From: Isoetes taiwanensis
Lineage: Eukaryota; Streptophyta; Lycopodiopsida; Isoetales; Isoetaceae
Direction: 5' to 3'
NCBI GenBank assembly: GCA_021234155.1
Contig: JAJEKV010000319.1
Span: forward strand, 188,001 to 252,000
DNA length: 64,000 nt
The stretch's first letter is position 1. Each line of letters opens with the position of its first letter. The notes below the pieces were generated by a model that saw only the letters and a list, made by a program, of their open reading frames with translations, made no database searches and was not told the origin of the DNA. The position numbers were made by a program, and so were the translations under genes. Below are positions 1 to 36,430 of the stretch, piece after piece.

Positions 1-889
1 CCACTCTGTCTCTTCTGGCTGCCAAAGAAATTAAATGTCTTCAACTGCCACAGAATTTGGGAGATTTCTCAATAATGCAGTATGGAGATGATACATTTGC
101 CTTTCTCCAGAATGATGGAACCAGTCTTCCAAACTTCCTGCAGATGTTAAATCTTTTTGGGGGTGCCTCTGGAGTTCATCTGAACAAAAATAAAAGCACA
201 ATTGTCCTGCAATCAGAGGAAGATGAGATTCATGGTATAAAGGTCACAGGTCACAGTACTGCCACTAAATTGCTTGGCCTCCCTTTGGCAGTTAACATGA
301 ACTTGGCAGGGCTGTGGGACCCCATTGTCAACAGGATGAAGAAAAAGATACAGATGTATCCTAAATCCCTCTCTCTTGCAGGACGAGTTGAGATTGTCAA
401 CAGTGTCATTGCAAGCACACACATTTTTTTCTCTTCAGCCATCATTGCTGATAAATCCTCCTATAGAAAACTAGAGTCAGCTATGAGGGACTACATTTGG
501 CAAGGTGCTAGAATGGTTTCCTGGGATAATTTGACTCTGCCCAAGAAAGAAGGAGGCCTGGGCGACCTTTTTGTCCAAGCACAAGCCTTGGCAGCAAAGC
601 TAGTTTGGAGATCTTTAATGTCTAATGCCCCCTCCAGCCTTTGAAATTAGTAAAGTGCTGGTTGGGGTTACATCTCTAGTGGGATCTCCTTCTCTCCCTC
701 ATCATCTTCCCGACTCGACCCTTTTTCCAGCTCAAAGTCGCCTCCAGCACATCCAAAATCTTGAGAAGAATTTTCTCCAGATGGAATCAAGCATCACCCG
801 CTTTAGAGCTCGGCCTCTAAGTTCTATCGTTGATGATTTTGGCTTCTTTTGGCATCGGGACTTGACCGGAGGAAGAGGAGGGATGTTTA
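1..889 (+). pseudogene. LINE (L1-type) ORF2 fragment: reverse transcriptase palm and thumb
   Basis: Decayed ORF2 of a plant L1-type LINE, entering from beyond the left edge. The frame at 57-644 carries the RT catalytic box as YGDD (usually YADD or FADD), then GVHLN.KS and the LLGLPL and SLAGRVEIVNSVI blocks that follow the palm in plant LINEs, ending near ALAAKLVWR. The reading then shifts frame and continues at 625-889, reaching WHRDLTGGRGG just before an inserted MITE. In an intact element the protein would reverse-transcribe LINE RNA at a nicked target. The upstream endonuclease and RT fingers lie outside the window. It is broken by frameshifts and by the insertion, so it cannot be active. 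Confidence 0.85.
881..889. repeat. Target-site duplication, left copy (ggatgttta)
   Basis: The 9-mer ggatgttta occurs here and again at 1376-1384, on both sides of the inserted MITE. A duplication of 9 bp fits Mutator-like elements. Confidence 0.75.
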
Positions 890-1375
890 CAGGGAAAAAA
901 TTAGTGGCTAATCTTAGCTAAATGGCGATTTTTTTGGTCTTGTTGGAAAAAAAGTGGCTAAACTATGGCCCTTTTTGGGCCAGAAAAAACAAAATATTAG
1001 CCAAGTCTATTTCACGCCCCAACTCTATTTCGTCCAACTTTAGCTAATTGCAAGAAAGTATAAGTGCCAAAAATTGGAGAGTTTAGCCAAAACTTGAAGG
1101 TTTTTACGTCAAATTTTGGCATACTTTAGCCAAATTATTTTATAACCTTTATATCTATTATGGTCAGTAAATATTTAGGTATTGAATTAGTGCAAAATAG
1201 CTAAATGATAGAAGACATTTTTACTTTTAAATATAAGTTTAGCCAAACATAAGAAAGTACAGGTGGCAAAATTTCGAAAGTTTAGCTAAACGTTAGTTTT
1301 CATCTCAATTTTTGGCATACTTTAGCCAAGTCTATTTCACCACTTTGGATTTAGAAGTTCCTTAATTTTTTCTCT
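890..1375. mobile_element. MITE with 9-bp target duplication, inserted in the LINE
   Basis: About 486 bp of non-coding DNA that interrupts the LINE reading frame. It is flanked by ggatgttta on both sides. The left end begins AGGGAAAAAATTAG and the reverse complement of the right end begins AGAGAAAAAATTAA, giving a short imperfect terminal inverted repeat. Inside are repeated TTTAGCCAA motifs, and two 19-bp copies of a direct repeat at 997-1015 and 1322-1340. The 9-bp duplication points to the Mutator superfamily. No ORF of note is present, so it would depend on an enzyme encoded elsewhere. Confidence 0.7.
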
Positions 1376-2572
1376 GGATGTTTAGCCCTCAAACATCCTC
1401 TTAAGTATAAGGAATGGTGCCATGCAGGTCTTCATACAATTGGTTCTATGAAGAATAATGATAAGTGGAAAGATTGGGGTGACCTTACCTCAGTATTGCC
1501 TGACACTGATACAAATAGAAGCATTTATGCTACTCTAACTCGAAACCCGGTGGGGCAAGCAAATTGTGCTCAAAACTGGACGTGTGGTGGGCTAGCATAT
1601 AAGGTTTCCAAAATTTATAGTCTGCTTTTGGATAGGTCTCAATTAAAAGTGAGCAGAGTCAGCTGCCAGCAGGACCTAGCCATCAAAATTATAAGACAGG
1701 GGTGGAAACTTCAATGTGCTAGCAAAATTGGGCTCTTCAGGTGGCTATTGTTGAACAAAAGTTTAAAGACAAATGGTTTCAGAGCCCAATTCAACAATCA
1801 AGTTTCTGATTTATGTCCAATGGGCTGTGGCTTAAGGGAGACAAGTTCACATGTCTTCCTTTGTCCCTGGCTCTCTCTTTTTTGGCAATGGATCCAACCT
1901 TTGGTACAACAAACACCCTCTGATGAGGCATCCTTGCTACAATATTTAAATCAGAACTCCCCTTTCAAAGGGACCATCCGGACCCTTACCTGCTGGGCCA
2001 TATGGAAACATAGGAACGAGATGGCCATCTCTGGATTGGCCCCAAGTTTGAATAAGCTTAAAGCTTCTTTTCAGGTCCTCCTAGCTGAGGCTGCATGGCT
2101 CACAAGGCAAAACAGGGCTTGAATTATGACAGACAATGGGATTCCTTGGGAACCTTCGATGGTTTCTTTCAGTTTTTTACTTTGCTTTTTAATGATGTGG
2201 ACTCTTTGTTTGACAGAGCTCTTGCTGAGGAGGCACCATGAGGGAGGACATGCCCGTGAGGTAGATCCTGCTACTGTTCCTTTGTCGGCTATGGAGACCA
2301 TAGATGCACTTTTCTGGCTCAAAACTGAGGTCATCAGCTGCATTACCTTTACTCGGCTGCTGGGCGATGAAGATCTCTGGAGGTTCAATCCGGAGATAAA
2401 ACCTTATTTCCAAACCAAGCTGAAAATTCATGAAGACGCTCGGGACGCCTGGATTATGTACCTCTTGGATTCAACTGGCTATGGACCGAATGAATTGGAT
2501 GATCTGATGTTCATCCACACAGAGGAGGCCTTTGCTATAATCAATCTCGAGGGGGTTCCTGATATTCTGTGA
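1376..2572 (+). pseudogene. LINE ORF2 C-terminal part with zf-RVT zinc module
   Basis: Continuation of the same LINE after the MITE. The frame resumes at about 1385 (LKHPLKYKEW) and runs through 1448-2122. It shows the plant LINE zf-RVT module: FRWLLLNKSLKTN followed by LCPMGCG, ETSSHVFLCP and W..W, that is C-x3-C...H-x3-C. This zinc module is typical of the C-terminus of plant L1 ORF2. A further open stretch ends at 2572 and is rich in D/E; it looks like the LINE C-terminal tail after another frameshift near 2230. I know no function for that tail. Confidence 0.8.
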
Positions 2573-2797
2573 AATGTTGACCAGAATACTAGACTAAGTC
2601 CTTTCTTCTCTGAACTATTTTAAAAGTGATCTTTTTTTGAGTGGGTATCCTTCCCTTAAAGGATTGTGATGGTTTCTCCAGCCATCACCATTTTTCCATT
2701 GTAAGGTTGATTCCTGCAATGGTTTTTTGTGTATGTATGACTATGTAATTTTCCCATACAGTAATACAATCTCTGCCGTTTCTTCAAAAAAAAAAAA
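2573..2797 (+). other. LINE 3' UTR ending in poly(A)
   Basis: AT-rich non-coding tail of the LINE, closing in a run of 12 A at 2786-2797. This is the usual 3' terminus of an L1-type retrotransposon. The matching target duplication cannot be checked because the 5' end lies outside the window. Confidence 0.65.
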
Positions 2798-5354
2798 GAT
2801 TTGGAGAAGCAGTACCCCCAATTTATGGAGCAATGCAAGGGTCGACTCGTCACCGAAGTAGTCGACACCGAACCAATCTAACATAACGCTATTGGTATAG
2901 GACAATGGCTAAGGTAGTCCACTTCATCAGCCCCCCTTTGCACACTTTGTAGGTAGGCTGAAACATGCTATGGCATGATTATAGCCTTCAGGAGACGCGT
3001 GAAATCACCCTATGAGACTACTCCGGGATATATCTCCCAGGTCCGATGAGGCAGGTTAGGGAGGCGTCCCCTCCCTGGGCATAATGGATCCATGAAGGTG
3101 CTAGAGGATACGTGCTACATCAGCAGCCCCCGCATCCATACCCGACTTACCCCCCTAGATCTAAAGGCCGGCTCACCGAGCCCGTTCGAACCCAGGACAT
3201 CCCTATAGGCACGTACCTTGTGACCCATACCCGGCCCCTTCAGTGACTAATGACTAACTATAAGACTATAGAAATCCTGTAGTTATGCTAGGCGGGATCC
3301 CACCTCCCTTTCATCATCATACGGATTTGTCCGGGTGTGAATCACAACATAGCATCCACAGCCAGGTGGGCTCTTGTGCACAAGCCACATTTATCGGGTC
3401 TTAAGTGTTCTAGCTAGAGACATATATACTACTAGGAAGTGTTGCGACATGATATCCTACAAGAAATCTTAAAAGAAGTGAAGGTATGCTTATATAATCA
3501 TGTACAAAGATATGCATGATTTAGACATGATAATAATAAATTTCTTGCCTGATGCACAGCTTCCTTAAATGCTATAAAAGCAAAATCCCTCTTGGAACCA
3601 GCAAGAGACTTACATATATGGCTTCAACATTTGAAAGTATCAACAATGTCTTTCCACATATTAGGACGCCGATCAGCCGATTTGAACAGGGGCGACGCAT
3701 TTGCGAGGAAAATATCTCTGAAAATCTTTGAACATCTATGAAAATCTCTCTGAACATCTCTGAGGATCTCTAAAAATATGTCTATCATACTCTGGAGTTG
3801 GACATGCAGCGACAGTTTACCATAATCAAGGTTGAATATTACCACACTTTTCCTTATTCAAAATTTTCTGTTTGTATATTGGAATAGGATTAGATGCAAC
3901 ACTTTTAAGTAGGCTAAGAGAGCTTTTCATTATACAAGCACTGAATTCAGCTTTATCTCCTTCAGATCAAGACATTTGCCTCTACATGGGTGATAGATAC
4001 GCATGATCTTTAAGTGGTTGCTGCACTAACATTGATGTGAAAAGCAAATTGCATACTGACTATTGACTTGACGAGACTACAAGCGTAAGTATTTCATGCA
4101 ATAATACTATGCATACCTAGATTGCAAGATATTTCATCTTCAAGTCAATTAGCTTTTGATAAACCAACCCTTTTGTCAGAAAGAAGTGGAGAATCAGACA
4201 CAAAATGACATATTTGAACACTTATCCTTCCCTTTGTGCCATATACAAAACGAAGAATATGATTATGTCAATTCCATTTGGTTCAGATATTGAACTTTGG
4301 ATGTTTCTTCTCTGTACATGTGCAATCTATAAAGAAAAGAAAAGAGAACAGCAGAAAACATTTCCCCTGATCAGACCACTAATAAGGCTCGACACATGAA
4401 ACGACCAATCAAGAAACATGAAAACACACTCTCATGAAGATACACTCCCATGGTGATTGTGATACATGAATGCCAAAGCACTATTCATGAACAATCAATA
4501 TAGTCAAGCCTAATTAGCATGAAGGTATCAGCAGTTTCCCTTTACTTCCTCAGTTGTATGAAATAACCTCCATAATTCGTGAAATAAAATAGAGAACGGA
4601 CTAAGAAAATGAAATCCTATATTCATACATCCCATGTACAATTTTCATTACTAATACGTTTCAATACATTCTAAAAGAAATTGATATTAAAAAACCAAGA
4701 AATATGAAAACATGCTCTTGGCCCCGGGATGGAAACCCTCTGTGCAGAGCACCTTGTTAATATGGGTTGTTTCATAAGGTGCTTTCGCAGTTGCAATATT
4801 TAAGAGAACTTGTGCCTATGGAAGAGCAACGATCATCGGCCGATGAAATTGTGGTGCCAATTACAGGAGCCCAGATCAGAAACTCCGGAAAGGTTGGCAT
4901 TGAATTCATAAGGCAATGAAGAATATTCCCATTCCTTGCGCTTCCTGAGACGGAGTTTGCCAGATTAAGTTTTGTGATTGAAGAATAAACAATACGAATT
5001 ATTGGTGTGATGGAAAATATTGTATATTGGGATTGGAAGCTCAAACATGTGCTTGTTGGGGGCTCTTATCAAAGTTCCAAAAGAGAGTATGAGTTATGCC
5101 AAACTGGGCAAGTATATTTTAAAGGGAAGACCTTTGTCTACATATATAAAATGTTCTGTTGAGCCCGAATTAGTTCCTGCATATTTTCTTCGGCAACTTG
5201 ATCAGGAACAAGTGATTTTAGTGTGCTATCTTGAAAATTCATAGCAAAGCAAAGACTACTGAAGTTGATATCTGGTGCGCATTAGCCTTGGTAACATTTG
5301 TCATGCTATGTATAATCCTTTCTTTGCAGTACCGTCATGTTGTAATGGACACAT
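2798..5354. other. Intergenic, no gene recognised
   Basis: No convincing coding sequence. On the minus strand, 3160-3250 reads like a pol III box B (GGGTTCGAAC) with loose box-A-like sequence about 35 bp upstream. This could be the head of a decayed tRNA-derived SINE, but no A-rich tail was found. At 3711-3776 there are degenerate 11-12 bp repeats of the form GAAAATCTCTCT. The short ORFs at 4205-4399 and 5020-5244 match nothing I know. Confidence 0.4.
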
Positions 5355-6211
5355 ATGAGTTGTGAAAACTGGGCAAACAGAAATGTAATAGTATGGGATA
5401 GGTTTTGGAGTCTATTTTGGTATGGTTCAGCAAATATGGCAGGTGGCCACATTGTTAATGGTGTTAGTGCCACTGAAATCAATGACATGCTGTTGATCCT
5501 TAAATTGTGTTCTATTGTAATAATCAGTTCTATATGGTTTAAAAATGTCACTACAATGGAACCAAATTACCCTTTCAGTCCAAACAATGGAATATGGATA
5601 CGAAAATCACAGCCAAAATTTTCCTACTACAAAAAACAGCTAAAAGGCTATGATAATTCGCAAAAGATAGAGATAGGGGATTTGGATGGTTGGCCGTTTA
5701 TCATGCAAAATATAAGGGTTTGGGCCATTGGAAATAAGGAATTCACATGCCGAGCTATGATACTACTAATAACTTGGTTAGCTAGACGATTTGGTGAGTT
5801 TTGTGGGGGTGGAGCCTCCCTACAGCATTGGCAAGGAGGCGGGCTAGTTAAACTTCAACAAAATAGATGGGATATTACCCTGCTCGCCCTGGAAAGAGAT
5901 AAGGGCACCTTAATTGGTTGGGGTGCAATATGGCTGACACAATGGCCTGGGTTGATAAAAGGGTCATTCCCAATAAAATATCCTCTATGGTGTAAACTTA
6001 CCCACCATTGTGGCACCGTGCCCTCACAAAGACACTTGAGAGGAAAACAATCTGACACATACCAGAAATGCCTAGGCCTAGTGGACAACAAATCTTTGAC
6101 TCCTCTAGCTACAATCTCTGAAACTCGAAGTAACCTACTCTACCATCCTGACAAGGGGGGAAGCGATGAGGGATGCGTGATAAGGGGTAATGTCACTCGA
6201 ATAGATAGATT
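5355..6211 (+). pseudogene. Unrecognised open frame upstream of LINE ORF2, possible ORF1
   Basis: A continuous 286-codon frame at 5355-6215 whose stop overlaps the first codons of the LINE ORF2 starting at 6212. Position and overlap suggest a LINE ORF1, the RNA-binding gag-like protein. I could not identify a DUF4283 block or a CCHC knuckle. The protein is rich in Trp and Gly, including GEFCGGG and WGAIWLTQWPG. It could equally be chance-open sequence. Function is unknown. Confidence 0.3.
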
Positions 6212-10165: not shown

Positions 10166-12816
10166 AAATAAGCCTGTAGAAAGAGCCATTCTATGGAAGT
10201 AAATTAAGGACTGGGTGATCAGTCAGCCAGTGGGCAATTGGGTACTGGGTGGTGACCTTAATATGGCAGATATTTGGGATAAAAAAATTGGCCTGTACAG
10301 GAACCTTCTAGGTGAAGAGCAACTGGCATGGGACTCCTGTTGTGGCTTTGTTCTTATCATACCGTCGAATACTCCCTACTCGTGGTCTAACAAACAAAAA
10401 GGAATCGACAGAGTTTATTGCCTATTAGACAGATTTTATGTGGCTAAAAGATCAGCCCCCTTCATGGATAGGTGTCATGTGGAAGGGGACCTTGCCTTTT
10501 CCCAGTCAGATCATGTCCCATAGAATCTAATATTTGAAGATCTTCCTTCTGCCAGACGAAGAGGAAATGCCCCCTTTAAATTTAATACAGGGCTCCTAGG
10601 GAAGGATCTCTTTTGTACACCATTTAAGGAATATCTTTTAACCCAGTCGAGGGATGAGGGACTCCCTAGTATGAAGGCCTGGATCAGGAAGAATGCCGAT
10701 ATGAAAGGTTGGATAAAAAATTGGGGTAAGCTGCGGGCTACCAAATCTAGGGCAACCAAGGTTGACCTATGTAACCAAATTCGGCAAGTTAAACAAGCTT
10801 TGATTCTAAACCCCTTCAATATTGTCAACCAGACACTTGAGGAAGGGTTAGAGGTCAGAATAAAAACGATAGAAGAGGAAGAGGCCCGTGGAGCTGCTGT
10901 TAGATCAAAGGCCAAATGGCGTGCAGAGGTTGACCATGAAAGCTCTAGGTGTTTTTTTAGACTGGCAGGAGCAAGGCTAGCTGAGAACAGTATCACTTCA
11001 GTTACAAATGATCAGAACGAAGTTCTTAGAGAGGAGGCAGAAATTAAATCCTTCTTCAGAGACAGTTACGAGGGGTTGTTCAAAGAAGATCCTCTCCCAA
11101 ATGACTATTATAGTACATGCTCCGAGTGGCTCCCCCTCCCGAGACAAGGTCAGCTTGTGACAGAAAGAGAAAATGTGCTTCTACTTCAAGAGTCTCAAGA
11201 GGTAGAAATCTACAAGACTCTGTGTTCCTTAGCCTCTGGCAAGTCTCCAGGACCTGACGGGTTCCCTCCAGAGTTCTATATAGAATTTTGGGATATGCTT
11301 GGGCCATTTTTTACTGCAGCAGTCAAGGGTGCATGGGCAGCTAAATAGCTTCACCCGGCCCTAGCAACTGGCTTTATCTCGTTGGTTCCAAAAGTTAGTA
11401 AGCCCCAAGTGCTAAGTGAATGGAGACCAATAGCGCTAACTAATGTGTTGTACAAAGTAATCATGAAGGTCATTGCCAATCGTATGAAACCAATCTTAAC
11501 CCGTCTGATTGGATGTGAACAATCAGCTTTTCTCCCAGGTAGGTACATTCTGGATAACTATCTGGCAGCCAGAGAGGGGCTCCATTGGTGCAAGTTATCT
11601 CTTCAGAACTGTGTGATGTTGAAACTAGACTTTCGTAGAGCCTATGACTCTCTCAGGTGGAATGGGCTGAGGCAGGTGATGGCTCATATGGGCTTTGAGG
11701 TAAACTTTATAGAGCTAGTCATGGGGTTGAACAAGATGGCATCAGCAATTGTCCTGGTAAATGGACAATCATAGGGTCCCTTCGAGCTCGAAAAAAATTA
11801 GGCGGGGTGTCCCCTTGCTCCTTAACTTTTTCTAATCATGGCAAATCTCTTAACTTGTATGGTGAAGAGCTTGATGAAGCAGGGATTGCTAAAAGGATTA
11901 CTTCCTCCAGGCATCGATCAAGAATTGTCTATTATGCAATATGCTGATGGTACCTTCCTTTTTCTAAGGTATGATGATGGGAGTTTTCATGCCTTCCAAC
12001 ATGTGTTAAAGTCCTTCTACTTTATCTCTGGGGTTGGGCTGAATCACTAAATGTGAGATCATATGGCCATTTGAAGAAGACATTGATACAAGGGTTAGGG
12101 CTTGGAACTACCATATAGTGACAGCTATGGAGACTACTAAGCTTTTGGGTATGCCACTCAACATTGGAGAAAATTTGAAAGGTCTCTGGTCACCAATTAT
12201 ATAAAGAATTCGAAAAAAGGTTAACCTCTGATCTTGTAAGTCCCTGTCCACTATGGGGAGAGTGACAGTTGCTAATGCAATCCTCAATGCTACCCATGTT
12301 TATTATTCTTGATTGTGGCACAAAAATATATATCTGACCAGTTATTGGTAGTTATTATAAATTTATATTGGGGAGGGGGGGATATTTGGGGTTGCATGGT
12401 GAAGAAATGTGCCGAGATAGGAAAGATGGGGGATTGGGATGTAAAGACCCAATGGTCCAAAGGAAGGTTCTAGCAGCAAAATTTGTATGGAGGGCTATTC
12501 AAGAGGAGGCATCTCCGGCTATTGCCTTTGTGAGTCACCGGCTGAAATATGGAAAGATTAAGGGGAAACCTTCAACCCCAGAGATGAGGTGGGTTCCTAC
12601 TTCTATAAATTTTCAATGGGCGAGGTACCTCCCCCTATAATGAGGAAAATATTAGAAGCTGGGGCAGGATGTGCGAGTCTCTTTAGCTTAGCGCATGCTC
12701 GGTGGGGAGGGGGGGGGGGGGGAGGGGAGGGGGGCGGTATATTTTGGAATACTAGGATTTGGATGAGGAATACGCTCCCCCTTGCACTTATACACCCTCG
12801 TGTATTCATTAAATAG
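10162..12816 (+). pseudogene. LINE ORF2 continuation: endonuclease end and reverse transcriptase
   Basis: Resumes the LINE broken at 6525. 10215-10523 shows GGDLNM and the catalytic SDHVP that close the endonuclease. 10671-11348 is the linker and RT fingers with GKSPGPDGFPPEFY. 11382-11774 carries PKVSKPQVLSEWRPIALTNV, QSAFLPGR and LKLDFRRAYDSL (first catalytic Asp). 11838-12050 has the palm box as YADG, losing the second Asp. Later frames show TTKLLGMPLNI and MGRVTVANAIL. Many stops and frameshifts make it a pseudogene. The same family occurs on the minus strand at 44595-46075. Confidence 0.88.
12701..12736 (+). repeat. G-rich tract with a 14-G run, G-quadruplex prone
   Basis: A nearly pure G stretch inside the decayed LINE, with several G-runs. 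It could fold as a quadruplex and is also a likely site of sequencing-length error. Confidence 0.7.
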
Positions 12817-25605: not shown

Positions 25606-26528
25606 AGAATTTAAAATTCATCAGAACTACTTTGGGTAGAATCAAACTCAAGAAGAGTGAGTAGAGACGTTTCATACCGAGTCTGGAAAGCCTGTTTGAG
25701 ACTATATATGGTTTTGTGAAGAAGATAAACTGTGTCAGCAGCTGAATCTTGAACAAAAACTTCAGGCTGTTCTATGAAGACTTCTTCTTTAAGAATATAA
25801 TTGAGGAAGGCATTATTTACATCCATTTGATGAATGAAACAATGGTGTAGAGTGGTAAATACCAGCACAATGTGAATTGAGGTCATTTTGGCAACTGGAG
25901 CATAGGTCTCATCATAATCAACACCGGCAATATGAGTAAAACCTCATGCAAATAATCTTGCCTTGAAATGGTGAAGAGAACCATCAGGTTTGAATTTCAA
26001 TTTGTAAACCCACCTAGAACCAAACGGCATGGCGATCTGCACGGTGGGGAACGAGGCTCCAAGTGTGAACTTGATGAATGTATTGAATTTCAATAGTCAT
26101 GGCAACAACAAATATTGGGCGTGATGAGGACTGTTGATAGCAGTAGAATAGGAAGATGGTTCAAAAGGAAGTTCAGAGATAACAAGGTTATAGTCTTTGT
26201 GCTAAATAGGAGGATGGCGAATTCATTGAGGATGATCAGAGGGAGGCATGAAAGGGAGAGGTGGAGGTGGCAGATTAGAAGACTCAGAAGTAGTATCTAG
26301 TGATGGAGCAGAAGATGTGGAAGGAGGCAAGGATGGAGGCAAAGCAGGAGTAGACTTGGAGAAAGAAGGCAATGGGTCTTCAATCAGTGTGAAAGTACAT
26401 GGAACAGTAGGTGAAATATGTTCAAACTCATTAAAACAAACATAAGTATTGATAACTAGAGTTTTTGTAGCAAGGTCCAATAAACGATAAGCTTTTTGAT
26501 TGGTGCAATAACAACAAAGTTTAAAATG
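25606..26528 (-). pseudogene. Ty1/copia pol: integrase-RT linker and reverse transcriptase N-terminus
   Basis: Left half of a copia element whose other half lies at 34458-36430. Reading the minus strand from 26549: QKAYRLLDLATK and VCFNE, the block that follows integrase in copia; a proline/serine-rich linker; then in fresh frames KARLFA.GFTHIAGVDYDETYAPVAKM and HQMDVNNAFLN, with the first catalytic Asp of the RT. EEVFIEQPE.FV and YSLKQA come next, ending at 25611. The rest of RT and RNase H are missing, cut by a nested LTR. Several stops and one or more frameshifts show decay. Confidence 0.85.
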
Positions 26529-26541
26529 AAACGCACTTATT
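26529..26541. repeat. 13-bp target-site duplication, left copy (AAACGCACTTATT)
   Basis: Identical to 34445-34457. On the copia coding strand it reads AATAAGTGCGTTT, encoding the NKCVF-like motif expected between integrase and KAYRLLD. Both flanks therefore belong to one interrupted copia element. Confidence 0.85.
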
Positions 26542-26909
26542 TGCTCCAAAAATCTTTGAAAGATTCCCTAAAATTCCCCTAAAAAGTCCATTTTTAAGGT
26601 TTTTTTGTGACAGGTGTGACAATTTAGGTAATTTAGGTACCCTTTTTGAGGGGTTGATTGAACATAACTGCCATGCAAAAATTTTAAATAGCAATTTTCA
26701 TCCTCCTAATTTAGAACAAGAAATAGTTACTTATATAAAGTGTAGCAAAAAAGGGGCAATAAAAAAAATAGCAAGGGTAGTTGATTGACAAAGAAGTGAT
26801 ATATTCAAGGTTGTGAAAATTGTACAAAATTATGAACAAAATTGTCAAAAATATAGGACATTTTGACAAACACTCGTCACCTGCACTTTCTGTTCTTTAC
26901 ATGTTCGAG

Positions 26910-29900
26910 TCATCGGACAAACTTACATTTTGCTGCAATATCAGGATGCATCTCATCCTCAGACTCATTGAATCCCTGATCACTTGAGCCTTCATCCTCA
27001 GCTTCACTCTCAAAACTGGATGTACTCGAACGATCTTCTTCCTCACTGTCTACAAGTGAGTCTTCATCATCATCTTTTTTGGCCACCTTTCTAGGTTGTT
27101 TGTCTAATCCACATGTCGACCTTATCAAAGTACGTAACTTATTAGCAGCAGTCAGAACAAAGTCATATGCAAGAACCTTTACTTCAGCTAGATCTATGAC
27201 AGCAGTGTTTGCTTTGGACTTTGCTCTCTTTCCCACTCCTGTTTTTACCATCTCCAAAGTATAACTCCCACTGAAAGCATTGGCAGCATTTGTTCTCATC
27301 CAGTGCACTTTTATTTGAGTGGGAATTCCATTCTCTCTTGTTACCTCCAGTACTTTAGCTAGCCAGAATGGCTTCCCATATTCATCATTATCAGCTGGGA
27401 CAGCTATGAGCATTTCTTTCTGAATCTCTGAGACTGAACCAGAGACTCGAGCAACTTGTTGTGCCGCGGCGTCTGGGGCGGTGTACATGACTCGTCATCT
27501 TCATCCGAAGCTAACCAATATCTCTACATGTTCCTCTTGATTCTCGACTTGTGCAGGGAGAGTTTGCCTAGATGGCCGGTTGAATGTGGCGGTCTTCGAC
27601 CTTTGTAATGAAGCTTGCAACATGTCACGCTGTTCTTGAAAAACCGAGGCCACCATAAAGCATTTGCCTCCCCAAAGTGGTTAGAGCACGACTGAATACT
27701 TGTCTCAATGTAATCCAATGATTTGTTTGAGTCAAATGCTCTTCCCTCCTTTTTACTCTTTGTGATTTCTTTCAAGCTTTTTAGAGGCATTTGCTCTGCA
27801 GAGAGCATGGAACTAGTATTGGGGATGGTGCGAATGAATTGAATACACTGGCCTGGCTGCCACTGCAAGGATATGGCATATTTCTTTCCTTGTAAGATGG
27901 CCTTGCCATCTACAAGTGAAATTTTGATCTGATGCTGAAATGTAATGTTTCTCAAGGGCTCAATAGCGCAGTGACCCAGTTGATCTCTCCGAAAAATCCA
28001 TTCCTTGAAATCATAAGTTTCTTCTAATAACTCGATGTCTGGATGAGGATTGTAGGAATCTTGGATAACCTCAATCATTGCTGGTAGGTGAGAGCTTTTT
28101 TTTTGAGCAAGACGTTTAGAGAACCATTGAACATCTGATCAATTTGATCGTGTGTATGACCAACAAGCAGGAAACCAATCTTCACCTTCTTGAAGATTTG
28201 TTTCTCAACTAGCATAGCACAGTAAGCAAACAAGGCCTGATTCTTATTTTCTCTTGTCGTGTTGTCTAGCTGAAGATATAGAACCGGTGGTATATGTTCT
28301 AGATTGGAAAGAAGCTTATTCAATATTGTGATAGTGAGATTTGGATCAGCGTGAATGTTTGGATAGTTCAAAAATGCCTTGCAAGATAGTTTTCCATTAA
28401 ATACCATAGCACCAACAACATGCTGGTGTATGAAATCTTCTTCAGCAGCATCCTTAGGCACATTGACAAAATGTGGTAGGGTGGTCTTCTTCTGGTCCAT
28501 TCCATCAATAACAACCAATATGTAGTTGAGTGGTTGTTCCAGTGCTTTCTTCCTATGTTTTGTCAATTTTCTCCTTTCCAAAGATTGTTGTTCTCTGTGC
28601 TTGTTCAGTTTCTCTTTCAATGCATCTGAAATGAAAACATGTTTAGGAAAGAACCTACCTTTAAGTAGAACTAGGCAAGAACACGTCCTGGAAGCGTACT
28701 TTTAGTGTGAAGTGTCCTTGTATTTTGTCTCTGAGCTTTTAATTCAGAGCATGTAGCACAAACAGACAACGCGAGAAAACTCTTTTTTCTAGAGCACAGT
28801 GAAGTAAGAGTAGCATGGCGTTCTCCAGCCTCAACACACATGTCCTTATAATTATCGTAGACTTCACGTTTCGTGAAGTTGTCACTCAAGTGGTACATAG
28901 GGCTGTTAGGGAGTTTCTCGCAAGACTCCTTAAAGAAACCTTCCATCCAGGAAACACATTGAAGGGCATGAATTCTGGATATACCTCCTGAGTGGCAGTA
29001 GTCATTAATGCCTGGATTCTTGTCAAGCCTTTTCTTAAGGCGGTCAAGTCGTCTGCTGCCTAAAGCATGAATGAATTTGAAGGCTGTTTGACAGACGGTG
29101 TGGCCACCAGCTGTGTAAGTAAACCTTTCACCATAATCTGGCCTAATATTGAAGGCTAAGTAGCCCCTTTGGTCTAACAAAGTCATTGAACTGTAACTAT
29201 CACGAATCAACCTCAATTCCTTTAGTCCAATCTTAAGCAAACAACGTTGAGAGCAACAGTGTTTTGTATGTGTTGCCCTCAAGTGAGCCTCGTCTATAAG
29301 TTTTTTTCTTCTTTGGGATATACATGCTTTCTTGTGCAAATCTCGCTTAAGATTTTTACTTGGAGGAGCTTTGAATTCGAACATAGAGTCTTGTGGCTTC
29401 GATAAATCAACATGAGGTGTTTCTTCGTCTGACACGGGACCAACAGATGGTGTACTAGCAGATGCTGAGAGGTTTGCTGTGGGCAAGTCTTGAGGGGAGC
29501 TGCTAGCCCTCTCTCTAGGAAAAAGTAGTCGAGGTTGGTGACGTAGTTGACCAGTTCCTGAAGTGTCGTAGAATACTGGAGTTGCATGGCGCTGACTGCC
29601 CCCACTTATTGTAGTGTCAACTAACGAAATGGATAGAGTTGGGGTGATATGGCTCCGGGGAGGCGGTCTACGCTGGACTATGGGAGACGTCTAAAACGAA
29701 CTGGAGGAGGGAGTCTGAGCTCTGTAGCCTGTGGTGGAGTAAAACGCATCGGTGGGGGCAAACGACGTTCAGGAGCAGGGTGTGGTGGAGTAAATTGAAC
29801 CGGTGGTGGAAGCCGAGGTGGTCGTGGTGGAGTATACTGAACTGGGCTGGGGCTTTGAATATCGGAAATAGAAGTTTCGTGGCTACTTCCTGGGGACATT

Positions 29901-29920
29901 TGAGGAGGTGTGAAAGCCAT
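26910..29920 (-). pseudogene. DUF7869-type putative transposase, degenerate
   Basis: One gene read across several frames, N to C. 29920-29678: proline-rich repeats of PPPVRFTPP type. Then a Ser/Thr-rich linker. 29486-28671: a basic segment followed by GGHTVCQTAFKFIHALGSRRLDRL and a CATCSEL zinc-binding-like pair. 28620-28075: VVIDGMDQKKTTLPHF, LQLDNTTRENKN and FLLVGHTHDQIDQMF, the signature acidic/His blocks of DUF7869 proteins, which I believe form an RNase-H-like core. 28078-27524: C-terminal extension. 27488-26910: FWLAKVLEV...IKVHWM, a chromo/Tudor-like fold, then a long D/E/S tail. There is a likely intron at 28631-28661. Frameshifts fall near 28690, in an A9 run at 28093-28101, near 27640 and near 29670. 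Assignment as transposase is inference from family and context. Confidence 0.65.
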
Positions 29921-29984
29921 TCGGAGGAGGAAGCCTGCGAGCAGGAGTGGGGGGCTCTGCAGCTCTTTTCTCTCTAGTCATACG

Positions 29985-30172
29985 GTATAAATTTATACGA
30001 CAGAAGCAGACGGTATAAATTTATACAGAGAAGGTATAAATTTATACAGAGAAAGGCAACTTCTCGCAGTAGACGGTATAAATTTATACAGAGATGGTAT
30101 AAATTTATACAGAGATAGTTTAAATTTGTACAGAGAAGAGTAACTCAGAACAAAAACTGTATAAATTTATAC
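29985..30172. repeat. Palindrome cluster 1: GTATAAATTTATAC at 21-bp spacing
   Basis: Exact cores start at 29985, 30013, 30034, 30076, 30097 and 30159, with a variant at 30118. Steps are 28, 21, 42, 21, 21 and 41 bp, mostly multiples of 21, or two helical turns. The cluster lies between the minus-strand ATG (29920) and its TATA box, in the probable 5' UTR. Confidence 0.9.
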
Positions 30173-30311
30173 GAAAATTCACAGATACTTGTATGGGAGA
30201 GTTTATGGAGAACCGCTATACGAAAAGGCTCTGAGCAGGGGTACTTAAGCCGGGTGCCGACCGATCTATTTTCTCCATACGCCGGTCGGAGTCGAAGCCG
30301 CTCGCGCTGCG

Positions 30312-30321
30312 CCTTATATAC
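30312..30321 (-). promoter_or_regulatory. TATA box of the minus-strand transposase-like gene
   Basis: GTATATAAGG on the minus strand followed by a GC-rich leader is a good plant TATA box. It lies about 390 bp upstream of the ATG at 29920, with palindrome cluster 1 between them and cluster 2 further upstream. Confidence 0.5.
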
Positions 30322-30443
30322 CCCCCCTAATTTGCTCTCACCATCGGCTATAAGCGAATCCATACGGTCATGGCCACGTAAGTCTCTAATCCGTACTATT
30401 CTAGTTTCTCCCGCTTTTTAAGTTGTTTCTAGCTTCTAAGCTC

Positions 30444-30867
30444 GTATAAATAAATTTATACCGAAATGGTTTTGAAATGGTATAAATTTATACGCTTCGA
30501 GCACGAGCAGTATAAATTTATACCATTCCAGAACATATTCGGTATAAATTTATACGCCCTCGAGCAAGAGGGGTATAAATTTATACCGTTCCAGAACACA
30601 TTCGGTATAAATTTATACCGCAAGTGTTACGGTTCGGTTTAAATTTATACCGCGCGTGCTCGGGGCGTATAGATTTTAACCGACTGTGTTCTGAAACGGT
30701 ATAAATTTATACCGCTCGTGCTCGGGGCGTATAAATTTATACCGATTGTGTTCTGGAACGGTATAAATTTATACCGCTCGTGCTCGGGGCGTATAAATTT
30801 ATACCGTTTCAAAACACAGTAGGCGTTTCAACAACAACTAGGTAGACACATGGGTATAAATTTATAC
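30444..30867. repeat. Palindrome cluster 2: iteron-like array with a 31-bp period
   Basis: Exact GTATAAATTTATAC cores start at 30480, 30510, 30542, 30573, 30605, 30699, 30729, 30761, 30791 and 30854. Variants are at 30444 (4-bp insertion), 30637 and 30667. From 30480 to 30791 the step is 30-32 bp throughout, or three helical turns. Spacers alternate between a type with GCTCGTGCTCGGGGC and a type with TGTGTTCTGGAAC, so the higher-order unit is about 62 bp. The array lies in the divergent promoter region of the two element genes. Confidence 0.92.
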
Positions 30868-31464
30868 GAAAAGACAATATTGGTGTCGAGTGTTTAAAGA
30901 ATGGTCCTGAACCTTAATGTTTGAGTAATATTGTTTGTTTTAAGCTTAAATGACACAAAAAAGGTGTTAAATTAGCGTGGATTTTATGCCCTTTTAGCCA
31001 CTTTTTTTACAGTTAATGTGTTTCAAAAAGTGGACAAAGGTTCTGTTTCTTATGTAAAAATGGGTTTTTTTACGCAGAAATGGATCAAGTTTACACAGAA
31101 AGGCCAACCATCAAAGGCTGCCCCAGTAGAGCCACAGACTTATGAACTGAAAGACCAGACGTGGTACGTCCACAGGGGCGCAAGGGAGAGCAAACCCACT
31201 GAGGCGTACCTTTATTTGTGTAATCAGTCAGGGAGGGGCAAGTATAAGACTGATGATTATTACCCTGCCGGCGAAGTGGTAAACCTTACTGCTACAGAGA
31301 ATGAAGATGAACTTTTGACGAAGTGCATGAATGACGACGGGGAAGTCTACTATATTCTGAATAGTAGAATGCTTAGAATAAGCATGTGCAAACCCAAAGA
31401 CGTGTATGACTACATAGCGGAAAATTACAGGAACGGCTATGTAAGTTGTTCTTAGTGGCTTTAC

Positions 31465-31478
31465 GTATAAATTTATAC
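31465..31478. repeat. Palindrome copy in intron 31441-31510
   Basis: Exact GTATAAATTTATAC within a 70-bp intron of the plus-strand gene, between a GTAAGT donor and an ATTACAG acceptor. Confidence 0.85.
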
Positions 31479-32520
31479 CGTCATCCTCCTAACTTAACCC
31501 TGCATTACAGGACCTAGTGGACATTTTGATGCCAGTAGTACTTTGTGAGCAATAGGTCATGGTCAAAGGTGTTTGGTACCCCATTCCTAACGAAGATTTA
31601 GAGAAGGACGAGGAAATAGAAGAAGAAGAGGAAGAGGAGGAACCAGTGGTAACAAAAGGGAGGAGCAAGAGAGCTGCATTGGTAACAGATACACAGCCTC
31701 CCACCAAAAAAAGGTCAAGAACCACAAAGACCTTGACTATAGAGGAGTCAGCAGAAGCTCTCCAGAAGGCTCCTGGAGCAGATCTTGTTGTGAAGCCCGC
31801 AGATAAGTCAAGTGCTATTTTAAAATGGGTTAATGACACTAAACTGCTCAAGCAAACCATTTCTTTGACATTGAGCACTATTAAGAGGCCACCTAAAAAT
31901 GAAGATGGGGTCAGAGTGCTTCAGGCCCGGAAGCTGTACGCATGTGGCTATACTGAAGCAAAGAATGAGAAGGAATCCTCATGCCCATGTGTCGCCACTA
32001 GTTGTAATGGTTGACAGGAGTCAGTGCAACCAATTAAAAGATTACAAAAAGGCTGACTTCGAAGATTACACCTATTATGTTCTTGGAGGCACACATAGTT
32101 ACAAGGCAAGGAAAGAACTATCAAAGGAAGAAAGCCGTAACTAAGTGGATGAAGAGGCAAAAGTCATTGCCTTGAGTCATAATCTCGACAATAACTTCAG
32201 ATTGAAAATGAGCCTAATAGACAAGATCCGCTTTATGCACCGAGAGTACGTGGAGTTCAAACAAGTGCATCGAGAGGACTTTAAAAAACAAAAAAGCAAG
32301 CTCCAAGAACTTCGAGAAGCTTGTGTCACAGAGTGCTGCCTTAGCTATGATTCAGATAAGAAGCCCATAATGGCTGTGAAGCAGTATGACAATTACTTCC
32401 AGCTTGCTTTCAGAGATGGTCAAGTAAGTAAAAGTTTTAATTTAGTCCTCCGTAGTATGCTTAGCATAGCTTAATTTGTGTATTAACATCAAACATTGTA
32501 AATTCGTACCAACCATGGCA

Positions 32521-32585
32521 GCCTGGTCACGGTATAAATTTATACCGTGGCTGGTCACGGTATAAATTTATACCGTGACCAGGCC
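32521..32585. repeat. Paired palindromes forming a large cruciform-prone block in intron 32424-32669
   Basis: Cores at 32532-32545 and 32560-32573 sit in extended arms. CCTGGTCAC on the left is answered by GTGACCAGG on the right, and each core is itself flanked by complementary CAC/GTG. The whole block folds either as two hairpins or as one long hairpin. Confidence 0.85.
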
Positions 32586-33191
32586 ACCGTGTGCATTTAG
32601 ACAGTACACTGCGCAACAAACACTTCTACGCCATTCAACACTAAACTACTTGTGTTCGATTATTAACAGGTGTGGGATCTTCAAGAAAGAATATTTTGTA
32701 TGTTCGAGGATGGTGAGCTGAAAGAACAAGCTAGCTCTGCAGGAAAAAAACCAAAAAAAAGGTGGTGAAGCAAAACAAAAAAACATGAGCATTGTACCTT
32801 GGACGCAGCTACAGGGTTTAAAAAGCAAAGAAATTTTTGTGCGACTCTTAGAAAAAGTAGTGGCCAAGGATTTCACTCTAGACGAAATGGCCAAGGAAGC
32901 TAAGACGTAAGCCACGTTTGCTATGCCGTGTTCTTTTTTCCCTCATTTTGTCTTACAACATTTTTCCCTCTGCAGTCAGAAAGACATTGTCACCTGCCAG
33001 GCCGAGTTAATGAAGCAACTAAACCTGGAGGACTGGGAGGAGTGCAAGCTTTTATATCCAACTTGTACTACAGATAGTATAATCAGAGAGCACGCTGTTA
33101 ACTTCAGTGGCTGGGTAAGTTTTGCAGAAAATACTTTTTGTTTTCGTGCCTTTGTCTCACAGTTTTCTTACAGAACAAGAAGAAAGGGCTC

Positions 33192-33262
33192 GTATAAATT
33201 TATACGGCACAGCACCGTGGTATAAGTTTATACAGCAAGGCAATTGTGGTATAAATTTATAC
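33192..33262. repeat. Three palindrome copies in the intron after 33114
   Basis: Exact cores at 33192 and 33249 with a one-base variant (GTATAAGTTTATAC) at 33220, spaced 28-29 bp. Confidence 0.85.
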
Positions 33263-34004
33263 CGCCACACCACTGAACTAACTTATTTTCTTTGTTTTCT
33301 TTCTACTAATTTTTAATTGTTGTATTGTTTGGAAGGCTAAAAACAAATGTCAAGGGACATGGTGGTGGCCCGCGCTTAGTAAGCTGTTTTGATAGGTTTT
33401 TACAGCGCAGATGCCAAAAAGACCATGGTTCATTTCAATACGCAGAATGAGAAGACTCCTCCCTGCAACGCTTTTCAGTTTCCGGCTGTTCTGCAAAAAT
33501 TGAGAGACCCACAGCGACTAGGCACTGTGGTATCCCATTATCAGAAGCCACAGAGGCTAATTAATAATTTAATACAGTGGTTTTCTCGCCCGGGAGATTG
33601 GATTTTGGATGCATTTTCTGGCTCAGGCACCACAGCAGTTTGCGCCCTTAGCAGGGGGCAATGTTGTCTCTGTCGACATAGACCCGGATAAAATAAGTTT
33701 CATCAGGACCAGGATAAGCTCTTGTGAATCCTTTCCTGATGAAAACGAGGAACTGGGAGCAAAGATTGGTGCTGGCGATGTTAAAGGCACATATACAGAA
33801 ATCCAGCCTCCTCTTACGGGAAAAAGAGATGAGGAGGTGGAGTTTGTCGACCTGGAGCCTGTGGTGCCTGAGTCCGAGAAACCGCCTGTACCTGTAGCAT
33901 TGGAATCAGAAGCAGGCGTCTCTGCTATTGTACCCTCGCAAGAGACAGATCCTAAGGGGTACGAGAGTCCTGTGGACTGGGAAGACCCACCTCCTCCACC
34001 TCCT

Positions 34005-34018
34005 GTATAAATTTATAC
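34005..34018. repeat. Palindrome copy overlapping the stop codon of the plus-strand gene
   Basis: The core GTATAAATTTATAC starts inside the last sense codon, and its TAA serves as the stop (34007-34009). Confidence 0.85.
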
Positions 34019-34444
34019 AGTCAGGATTATAAACTAACTTTCATTGTAAACTATGTGCTAAGAATTATAATATATTTTGATGAAGATTTTTAAACTGAAA
34101 GCTTTGTCTCTTCAACAATGCTTAATTAGAACAACTCTTTCTTGCTCCATGATTTCACACTCTTTGTCTTTCCTATGTTTGATTTTCTTAGTACTTATAT
34201 TAAGCTTGCAAAAAGACAAACTATATTTCCTTCTATTTTCAACAATAAATCCTTATTGAGTTTTCAAATTTAATGTCTCTCTCCTCAAAACAAGCATTTT
34301 TTTTTTGCCCTCTTTTAAAAATGAAAAGGCTTCAAAAATGTTGCTTTTTTTGGGGTATTTCGAATGCTAATTGCTCAACAATCTATTTTGCTCCCTATTT
34401 TGTCTGTTTTTTTCAAGTTTTCAATTTTTATAAAGGAATCTTTC
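34019..34444. other. Right sub-terminal region of the 7.9-kb element
   Basis: AT-rich, non-coding. Ends GGAATCTTTC at the 13-bp duplication, matching the inverted 10-mer near the left end. Confidence 0.5.
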
Positions 34445-34457
34445 AAACGCACTTATT
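34445..34457. repeat. 13-bp target-site duplication, right copy
   Basis: AAACGCACTTATT, identical to 26529-26541, followed directly by copia sequence in the same reading context. Confidence 0.85.
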
Positions 34458-35654
34458 AAATCTTGTTTAACCTATAAGAATATATATTCTTTGATAGTGG
34501 TAGCAAATGGCTTGATCAGAGTTTTTCGGGCAGACGACCAACAAGACTATTATGAGATGTGCGATTACTGAGATAAACAGCAGTAGCCATATCTTCTGCC
34601 CAATGAGTGGCCGGAACATGCATAGCAAGAAGCAAGGTGCGGGCCATTTCAATGATGGTGCGGTTTGCACGCTGAACATGGCCAATTCCGTTCTGGAGTG
34701 TAAGGAGTAGATAACTGATGTTGTATACCATAAGAGGCACAAAAATAATTGAACGAATTGGAGCAAAATTCACCTCCACAACCATCAATTCGAATGGTAA
34801 TAATACGTTCTTGAGTGGCACGTTCAATTTCTCGATAAAAAAGAAGAAAGAATTCATATGTTTGACTTCTTGCCTGAAGAAAATGAACAGAGATCTTTCT
34901 GCTAAAATCATCCAATATGAGGAAGAAGTAACGGGCATTGCTAACAAAAGGAGGACTGATTGGGCCACAGAGACCAAGGAAGAAGCTCAAGACGGTGATG
35001 AAAGGACGAAGAGGATGATGGAAAATGAGATCGGGTAGTCTTGCTGTGCATGCAAGCATTACATGGAACAAAGATAGTGGCTGGCTGACGAAGATGGTAA
35101 TGAGTGATAAGATGGTGACAATAACGTGGAGAAATATGGCCAAGGCGAAAATGCCAAAGGGTATGTGCAGTGTGTGGAGAAACAACAAGATGGGCATATT
35201 CAGCAAGGAGAGTACTATCTGCAATACGATAAAATTTTTTAAAATGAACTCCAATAAGAATATCATAGAAATTGAGAACTTTACAGATGTTGGTGTTGAA
35301 AGCAATATGAAGGCATGCATTAGTCAACTTACTTATAGAGATGAGGTTCTTTTGCAAATCTGGAACATGTAATGCATCTCGAACCATTTTGATGTTTCCA
35401 TTTAAAAGTGGAACAGAAACAGTTACCTTGAGCAATTGCATAGCATTTGCTATGATCTCCCATGTGCACTGGATGAGGAGAGGAAATGGATTATAAGTCA
35501 CACAGAATGCACGATATGGAGAGACATTGCTTGTTGCACCAGAGTCAAGATACCAAGAAGGGTTAGGAAGAACATGATCAGCATTGACACAATAGAAAAA
35601 ATCTTGAACCATATTGCTTAGTTCTTCATGTACACCCCGATCAGGATTGGGCAT
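34458..35654 (-). pseudogene. Ty1/copia pol: protease and integrase
   Basis: Minus strand, N to C. WYLDSGATSN (about 35560) is the aspartic-protease active site. LWHFRLGHIS...CNACMHSK is the HHCC zinc domain before integrase. FLILDDFSRK and IRIDGCGGEF hold the first two Asp of the DDE core. The third acidic position reads Gln (HVQRANRTI instead of the usual VERxNRTI). ARTLLLAMHVPATHWAEDMATAVYLSNR is the integrase C-terminal block. The frame then passes through a short degenerate stretch to the NKCVF-like site interrupted by the 7.9-kb element. Frameshifts near 35040 and 34680 make it inactive. Confidence 0.88.
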
Positions 35655-35699
35655 GGTGGAGGTTGAAGAGACTAAGGCTGAAGCACGGTAGTCCCTAGC

Positions 35700-36430
35700 T
35701 AGATGACCTATCTTATGGCATCGATAACATGTAGGTCATCCCTTGTTAGAACGAAACCTAGGGGTTTTCTTGGCAGGACTATTGTTGTCTGCAACTATGA
35801 CGACCTCTGATGTCAAACCCCCATTTTGTTGTTGATGAAGGGTCTCAGCACTGAATTCGATCCATGACATAACCAAAGGTATAGTTTGAAAGATGCCCTT
35901 TAAGATTGATGATCAGACTCTCGAAGGATTTGGGCGGACTATTGAGTAACAAGAGCACTTTCTCATCTTCTGTGATATCTACACTAGTGGCACAGAGATC
36001 ATCCAACAGTTCTTTGATCTTTACAGAGTATTTGTCGTCGTCTCCACCCTTATGCAAATGGAGATCATACAGTTTCTTTTGCAGCATCAGCTGATGTGCA
36101 GCGTTTGGACATTCATAATGATTCAGCAGTCACTTCCACATCTCTCGAGCAATTGATGCCTCTTTCACAGCTCGTGTGGGGGCATATTCAAGGAGAGTGC
36201 AGATTAGAATATGAGCCCTCCGATCTTTTTCATAAAAAACGGAGATGGGACTATTCCCAATGACCTCAATTGTTGAAACAGTTTCAGAGCTCGCCATGGG
36301 CGAGGATACAGTAGGATTCACAACGTCCCATAAATTTTTATTCTCCCGAATCATCTAGAGGTGCCACTTAAACATTTGGAAATTCTGCCTTCAAAACGAG
36401 GAAGAAGGCGTCAGTAGTATTCAAGACTCC
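35700..36430 (-). pseudogene. Ty1/copia gag with altered zinc knuckle
   Basis: Capsid part of the same element. From about 36430: MDSANTG, then FKWHL and ENKNLWDVV, DRRAHILICTLL and IAREMWK, the usual copia gag helices. 36087-35845 has LHLHKGGDDDKYSVKIKELLDDL and EDEKVLLLLNSPPKSFESLI. Near 35720 the knuckle reads CYRCHKIGHLARDY, with Tyr where the last Cys of CX2CX4HX4C belongs. Stops and frame changes are present. Confidence 0.8.

Follow-up and report, generated by a model that had tools for sequence, protein, structure and literature searches.

The 64,000-nucleotide stretch of the Isoetes taiwanensis genome analyzed here (assembly GCA_021234155.1, contig JAJEKV010000319.1, positions 188,001 to 252,000; hereafter the window) contains a DNA transposon of 7,955 bp at positions 26513 to 34467, whose ends were placed by comparison with 20 other copies in the same genome. 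The element carries two divergent, intron-containing genes, an arrangement that a preliminary description had proposed and that splice signals and the other copies bear out: gene 1 on the minus strand (26910 to 29981), encoding a DUF7869 protein that is predicted to be the transposase, and gene 2 on the plus strand (30370 to 34010), encoding a putative ParB-like protein with an amino-methyltransferase part. Its non-coding parts contain many exact copies of a 14-bp palindrome, and a second family, which shares the gene pair, has a palindrome of its own. The window copy, which has frameshifts and stops in both genes, is one damaged member of a large plant DNA transposon family.

Well-kept copies of the family start with AACAAAGTTTAAAATGAAACGCACTTATTT and end with AAATAAGTGCGTTTCATTTTAAACCTTGTT, which constitute inverted repeats of about 30 bp (AACAA...TTGTT); the repeat AACAA[A/G]GTTTAAAATGAAACGCACTTATTT is present with few mismatches at both ends of the copies L010, L014, L017, L021 and L025. 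The left terminal inverted repeat of the window element, AACAAAGTTTAAAATGAAACGCACTTATTT, occupies positions 26513 to 26542 (plus strand). The right end (34445 to 34467, minus strand) is damaged, as it is in L009, and compared with the window about 20 extra inverted-repeat bases are found there in L010, L014, L017, L021, L025 and L028. The target site duplication TAAC flanks the element on the left (26509 to 26512) and on the right (34468 to 34471), and the duplication is exact and 4 bp long in all seven copies in which both ends were seen, i.e., the window and six of the 20 loci (TAGT, CTAT, GGAT, ATTT, AAAT, GCAA and TAAC). The family thus combines the terminal inverted repeats and the target duplication of constant length (4 bp) that characterize DDE cut-and-paste transposons.

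These ends differ from those given in the preliminary description, which regarded 26542 and 34444 as unusually certain boundaries set by 13-bp direct repeats. The 13-bp repeat AAACGCACTTATT is indeed present at 26529 to 26541, within the left terminal inverted repeat, and at 34445 to 34457, but in other copies it is found inside the terminal inverted repeats, and it exists because the motif AAACGCACTT recurs within both element ends. Moreover, the sequence common to the copies extends beyond 26542 and 34444 on both sides. When the window flanks are joined with a single TAAC, an open frame runs through the junction with copia sequence on its far side (...IYILIGYCTNQKAYRLLDLATKT...), whereas joining them by the 13-bp repeat places a stop immediately before the copia stretch. 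The copy ends, the 4-bp duplications and the frame of the joined flanks therefore rule out a 13-bp duplication with ends at 26542 and 34444, and define the window element as 26513 to 34467. Copies ending elsewhere had been named beforehand as a sign against the element; they do end elsewhere, which disposes of those two limits and leaves the existence of the element intact. The claim that the insertion lies in copia coding sequence is upheld by the copia frame that is read across the TAAC-joined flanks. The host sequence at 34472 to 35735 and 26223 to 26508 belongs to a copia-type element that lies on the minus strand and is itself decayed: across the empty site of the transposon its frame reads ...IYILIGYCTNQKAYRLLDL..., and just upstream the integrase side is in another frame.

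The copies were found with a 2-kb query from gene 1 against the same 1.66-Gb genome, in which 40 of 1,416 first-look candidates were scored. Among these 40, 39 further genomic places match the query (43 match rows including the window), with an identity of 88-94%, small pieces excepted. Twenty genomic copies were then compared as 9.8-kb clips, with the window as the 21st sequence. According to tblastn, both genes are present in divergent orientation in 10 of the 20 copies, with a coverage of at least 99% for gene 2 and at least 98% for gene 1; gene 2 is partial (7-70%) in six copies and is not found within the 9.8-kb clip in four. It should be noted that, as the copies were chosen by their match to gene 1, this count is silent on gene 2 occurring without gene 1. 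Taken with the second family described below, the co-occurrence that the preliminary description had asked to be checked is found, and a multi-copy transposon family with this gene pair is almost certainly real.

Gene 1 has one intron (approximately 28626 to 28699) and is frameshifted in the window copy. Its best exon frame matches PF25273 (DUF7869) with an E-value of 4.2e-39, in line with the earlier assignment. A profile match, the alignment and structure prediction place the DUF7869 core, with a predicted DDE/RNase H fold, at 27878 to 28455 (minus strand), and structure prediction adds a probable C-terminal BAH-like chromatin-reader domain with approximate limits 27110 to 27494 (minus strand). 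In the gene 1 alignment, D64 and D67 are invariant, and D144 and D186 are at least 90% conserved (L009 numbering), as would suit the DDE/D residues of an RNase H-fold catalytic core. The gene 1 product is therefore best described as a predicted DDE/RNase H-fold transposase with a C-terminal BAH domain. A total of 309 DUF7869 homologues were found, and the 120 matches listed include Riccia, Adiantum, molluscs, echinoderms, amphioxus, cnidarians and a sponge. Proline-rich repeats of the type RLPPPVRFTPP are present near the start of gene 1, in its N-terminal region (window positions 29600 to 29977).

Splice signals and comparison with L010, L014 and L028 give approximate exons for gene 2 at 30370-30377, 31078-31440, 31511-32423, 32670-32906, 32976-33114 and 33336-34010; the first is short (ATGGCCAC, directly followed by GT, at 30370). 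A further exon, the one with the catalytic D-I-P-Y motif IV, has been lost from the window copy together with the rest of about 0.55 kb that other copies contain at the deletion site (33191 to 33192). Between the two genes lies a palindrome-free intergenic region (30175 to 30369), which has a TATA-like motif for gene 2 (TTATATA, near 30314) and probably serves as a bidirectional promoter. Gene 2 includes a putative ParB/Srx-like region at approximately 31880 to 32270, which is frameshifted in the window; its motif reads GGTHS or GGSHS. Of the beta-class amino-methyltransferase, the C-terminal half remains at 33383 to 33760, with the S-adenosylmethionine (AdoMet) motif FSGSGTT. Gene 2 matches N6_N4_Mtase (PF01555) with E-values of 8.6e-12 for the window copy and 1e-15 for the L014 exons, its methyltransferase part matches CcrM (1e-9) among solved structures, and the phage families phrog_67 (4e-21) and phrog_498 (1e-20), both named DNA methyltransferase, match it as well. 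In L014, L017 and L028 the motifs follow each other in beta-class order, in which motif IV ([D/N/S]xP[Y/F/W]) precedes the AdoMet motif (FxGxG): DIPYGF comes first and then FSGSGTT. Among the nine family-1 copies shown, motif IV is DIPYGF in L014, L017, L018, L021, L024 and L028, and its frame is broken in L011 and L020; it is DLPYGF in L030 and L035 and NLSYGF in L037 of the second family, and in Adiantum it is DAPYGF in two proteins and DALYGF in a third. These sequence features suggest that the gene 2 product is a ParB-like protein with a beta-class amino-methyltransferase, producing N6-methyladenine (6mA) or N4-methylcytosine (4mC).

Homologues of gene 2 were sought among 5.8 billion proteins, the search being restricted to those sharing short exact words. 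One sequence query gave two homologues and a small profile gave 10, nine of them new; they derive from Adiantum nelumboides, A. capillus-veneris and six ENA entries, so that the named relatives are Adiantum ferns. Of the six ENA proteins, the four that were read (P0126, P0127, P0128 and P0131) all have the N-terminal and ParB-like parts and end before the methyltransferase. A viral link was considered and rejected: the palindrome-pair pattern had no match in viral_contigs, where the ParB exon of L010 has no relative either. The same holds for a phage origin, since tblastn against phages (366 records) gave only distant methylase matches among the 12 listed, which are confined to the methyltransferase part of gene 2 (best E-value 2e-5, about 27% identity).

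The palindrome, GTATAAATTTATAC (GTAT-AAATTT-ATAC), is a perfect one of 14 bp, and the window element has 22 exact copies of it in its non-coding parts. Six are arrayed in the gene 1 5' leader (29985 to 30172) and ten in intron 1 of gene 2 (30480 to 30867), so that the arrays lie just downstream of both inferred promoters. Five are located in other gene 2 introns, with one in intron 2 (31465 to 31478), two in intron 3 (32532 to 32573) and two in the remnant of the intron before the last exon (33192 to 33262). In the last copy (34005 to 34018), the letters TAA are the in-frame stop codon of gene 2, as they also are in L014 (8448) and L028 (8438). Together, the 21 family-1 sequences have 301 exact palindromes and 61 with one mismatch, and the whole genome has 12,556 exact copies, compared with 17 for a reversed-letter control. 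L013, L019 and L022, which have nearly no gene 2, have no palindromes. The commonest flanks lengthen the consensus to CGGTATAAATTTATACCG. Among the 61 one-mismatch palindromes, the commonest change is G1 to A (12), followed by C14 to T (5), as cytosine deamination would produce. The sole TATAAATTTATA outside the element within the window is at 12356 and does not have the GTAT/ATAC edges.

When the ENA protein P0126 served as a query against this genome, 73 of 2,963 candidates were scored and 92 matches obtained; the six loci fetched from among these (L029 to L034) represent a second family. Three of these loci were refetched with longer context (L035 to L037, overlapping L029, L031 and L032); two of the three, L035 and L036, have the head-to-head gene pair, and in L037 the 10 kb covered contain gene 2 alone. 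Identity to family 1, by segment, is 31-45% for gene 1 and 34-49% for gene 2. L035 shows an inverted repeat (AACA...ATTAAACGGGAG), and a 4-bp duplication was not demonstrable at the family-2 ends. This family has a palindrome of its own, GTATTCCGGAATAC (GTAT-TCCGGA-ATAC), with five to eight exact copies in five of the six short loci and, in L030, only two copies of its inner 12 bp. The genome contains 3,720 copies of GTATTCCGGAATAC and none of its reversed control. The two palindromes do not mix: the first is absent from all nine family-2 loci and the second from all 21 family-1 sequences.

The spacings between palindromes cluster, at 21, 28, 30-32, 41-42 and 62-63 in family 1 and at 42 and 82-85 in family 2. 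With a period of 10.5, R is 0.62 for 34 spacings of L014 and L028, and 0.71 for 37 family-2 spacings (23 among the matches listed). Spacings near multiples of about 10.5 bp may reflect helical phasing or tandem duplication and are only suggestive, because other periods score nearly equally in L014 and tandem duplication of a unit would mimic phasing.

Comparison of L014 and L028 shows that the palindromes have kept their places in lineages that separated long ago. In the last methyltransferase exon, 57 of 122 codons for the same residue differ, and residues differ at 7 of 129 positions; gene 2 has therefore been under strong purifying selection over a long divergence. Outside the motif the two copies are hardly alignable, identity being 43-44% for three introns, 46% for the leader of gene 1 and 56% for the intergenic block. 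Despite this divergence, their palindromes occupy the same introns and the stop codon. For the motif columns, identity reaches 100% in four blocks and is 88% in the intergenic one, but aligners pull identical motifs together, and we therefore give more weight to position (intron, stop codon) than to column identity. Across the 10 full copies and the window, wherever each place could be located, a single palindrome lies in the intron that follows exon 2 in nine of 10 copies (none in L025), the intron after exon 3 has one to seven in all 10, the intron before the last exon has one to five in all eight, and an exact palindrome with an in-frame TAA closes gene 2 in seven of nine. That the counts per intron are equal was also considered, as L014 and L028 agree (1, 3 and 4), and was dropped in view of the ranges of 1-7 and 1-5 in the other copies.

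The copies differ in the history of their halves. Relative to L014, L028 is 94-97% identical in gene 1 at element positions 501 to 3000 and 63-76% identical beyond, and L026 is 90-98% identical over the same positions and then 67-78% up to position 6000, where it breaks off. The sharp step in identity at about position 3000 means that elements have recombined; in the products, a transposase half that spread recently is combined with old, diverged halves that carry gene 2 and the palindromes. It follows from the step in L028 and L026 that the array is inherited together with gene 2 and the N-terminal portion of gene 1, and not with the transposase core.

We propose the following mechanism. The gene 1 transposase would cut at the inverted ends of about 30 bp, leaving 4-bp duplications. 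An element protein, most likely a dimer of the gene 2 product, would bind the arrays of its family's own palindrome in the leader and introns; once methylated or occupied, these arrays would keep the promoter region of the element from host silencing or mark the copies as self. Dyad symmetry, copy number, non-coding placement and a family-specific center within a GTAT....ATAC frame are the trace that a dimeric binder encoded by the element would be expected to leave, and self-marking by the element fits the palindrome arrays. We consider this proposal as a whole, that is, the transposon, its gene pair and an element protein that binds the palindromes to mark or de-silence its own kind, to be evenly poised between right and wrong. 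Its more specific form, in which methyltransferase and 14-bp palindrome co-diverge like lock and key, so that only the family's own copies would be marked and silencing escaped or tuned, is possible but somewhat doubtful.

Several observations weigh against this proposal, which is built on sequence features. Both gene products differ between the families, so the binder could be either of them. Of the two activities previously attributed to gene 2, the methyltransferase holds (PF01555), and the ParB/Srx likeness has a weak profile match (phrog_1033, in six of six members, best E-value 6.5e-4); this region has no ParB match in Pfam or NCBIfam, its fold prediction from a six-row alignment is of low confidence (predicted local distance difference test score, pLDDT, of 34), and its sulfiredoxin match in PDB, with E-values of 0.5-2, ranks under better matches to unrelated proteins. 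In ParB itself, binding of parS belongs to a different domain, and most bacterial methyltransferases recognize 4-8 bp, compared with the 14 bp here. Motif IV is altered to DIPCGF in L010, NLSYGF in L037 and DALYGF in P0123, and gene 2 of the window, having lost the motif IV exon, is unable to yield an active enzyme. Finally, the stop-codon palindrome has one mismatch in L010 and two in L024, and the number of palindromes per intron differs among copies, even if their places are constant.

The palindromes could instead be sites for the transposase, or for an auto-repressor function of gene 1 that tunes expression or transposition, the methyltransferase having a separate role. Transposases often bind internal repeats, as those of Ac/Ds and En/Spm do, the arrays flank the inferred promoters, and gene 1 diverges between the families with different palindromes just as gene 2 does. 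Yet 16 of the 22 window palindromes lie inside gene 2, six in the gene 1 leader and none in gene 1 exons, and the arrays of L028 and L026 were not inherited with the transposase core. The recombinant copies hence point to gene 2, or to the N-terminal portion of gene 1, as a likelier source of the binder than the core, and we regard this alternative as unlikely. Tandem duplication and gene conversion might also have produced the palindromes as selfish or mutational repeats that no protein binds; such an origin would account for the clustered spacings, the partly tandem arrays and the variation in copy number, both overall and per intron. It accounts poorly for isolated palindromes whose flanks are unrelated but which occupy the same introns and the stop codon in two gene 2 lineages that differ heavily at synonymous sites, and for a distinct palindrome in the second family with no mixing, and we find it improbable. 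A third alternative leaves the gene pair in place and changes its purpose: the methyltransferase would shield transposition intermediates or excised DNA, or silence its own family to limit copy number. The amino-methyltransferase N4CMT of bdelloid rotifers acts toward silencing according to the portion of its description available (PMC8885841), while 6mA, which is one of the two candidate products here, goes with permissive chromatin in the eukaryotes surveyed, in the available portion of that survey (PMC12695648); the chance that this alternative is correct seems slim. A chance pile-up of unrelated genes in copia, for which the damage of the window copy is the sole argument, is refuted by the complete pair in the same orientation in 10 of 20 copies and again in the second family, and its probability is practically nil.

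If binding and self-marking by an element protein are correct, each family would write a bacterial-type base mark, within the nucleus of a plant, only on copies of its own. Whether amino-methylation (6mA, 4mC) has any meaning in plant genomes is disputed, and a writer carried by a transposon, with a 14-bp candidate target, sharpens the question: the approximately 12,600 and 3,700 genomic sites are places where such a mark could sit, the palindrome arrays make the idea of self-marking testable, and two families in one genome provide a built-in specificity swap.

Parts of this system resemble systems already described, and the likenesses given here refer to the available portions of the papers cited. 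Like N4CMT, gene 2 encodes a putative permuted (beta-type) enzyme of the bacterial N6_N4_MTase type (PF01555) in a eukaryote; N4CMT is encoded by the host, has a chromodomain, silences transposons and is described as being without eukaryotic homologs (PMC8885841), unlike the methyltransferase here, which is transposon-borne and accompanied by a ParB-like region. Retrotransposons with DNMT genes likewise are mobile elements with a DNA methyltransferase under purifying selection, but theirs are cytosine-C5 enzymes, found in LINE, DIRS and Gypsy elements, and adenine and cytosine enzymes are called structurally unrelated (PMC5890265).

The Arabidopsis VANDAL elements have arrays of short motifs in their introns and upstream regions; the VANC protein of the same family binds these arrays and relieves the elements of host silencing (PMC5735166, PMC10398659). 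Common to both systems are a second element protein, motif arrays in the non-coding parts of the element and a motif that differs between related families. VANC is, in the text available, not described as a methyltransferase, and its motif YAGTATTAY is in one orientation, whereas here the motif is a perfect palindrome; furthermore, VANC binding has been demonstrated, and binding in the present elements is suggested by their sequence. We propose by analogy that a VANC-like logic may operate here with a ParB-like amino-methyltransferase as reader or writer, which would make these elements a candidate second case, beside VANC, of elements labelling themselves with motif arrays.

The closest likeness is to a brown-algal Sola1 element of 21.5 kb, in which a gene for a ParB-like and N4mC/N6mA-type methyltransferase protein lies on the strand opposite the transposase, and whose authors already put forward the idea that proteins of this kind bind to the transposon that encodes them and modify it epigenetically. 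As far as can be compared by description, both systems combine a transposase with a ParB-like/amino-methyltransferase gene on the opposite strand, and an amino-methyltransferase domain (PF01555, 1e-15) is found in that gene here. Such a gene opposite to a transposase is thus already in print. Sola2 elements also have 4-bp target duplications (PMC3627910, as partly available), and the likeness to the Sola superfamily is one of duplication length. The elements described here differ from the algal one in being 8-9 kb long, in occurring in a land plant and in forming two families whose palindrome arrays are distinct. Neither 'palindrom' nor 'binding site' occurs in the main text of the brown-algal Sola1 paper, and our literature searches, outside which most subscription papers lie, found, among the papers listed, no title or abstract start reporting palindrome arrays tied to such elements and, in full text, no mention of DUF7869. 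Within the literature searched, the family-specific palindrome arrays appear to be new, and the gene pair is a new plant variant of a type known from algal transposons, the pairing itself not being categorically new. Compared with other DUF7869 (PF25273) proteins, gene 1 is tied to defined ends, a 4-bp duplication and a partner gene, and a widespread protein family is thereby linked to a transposon with defined ends.

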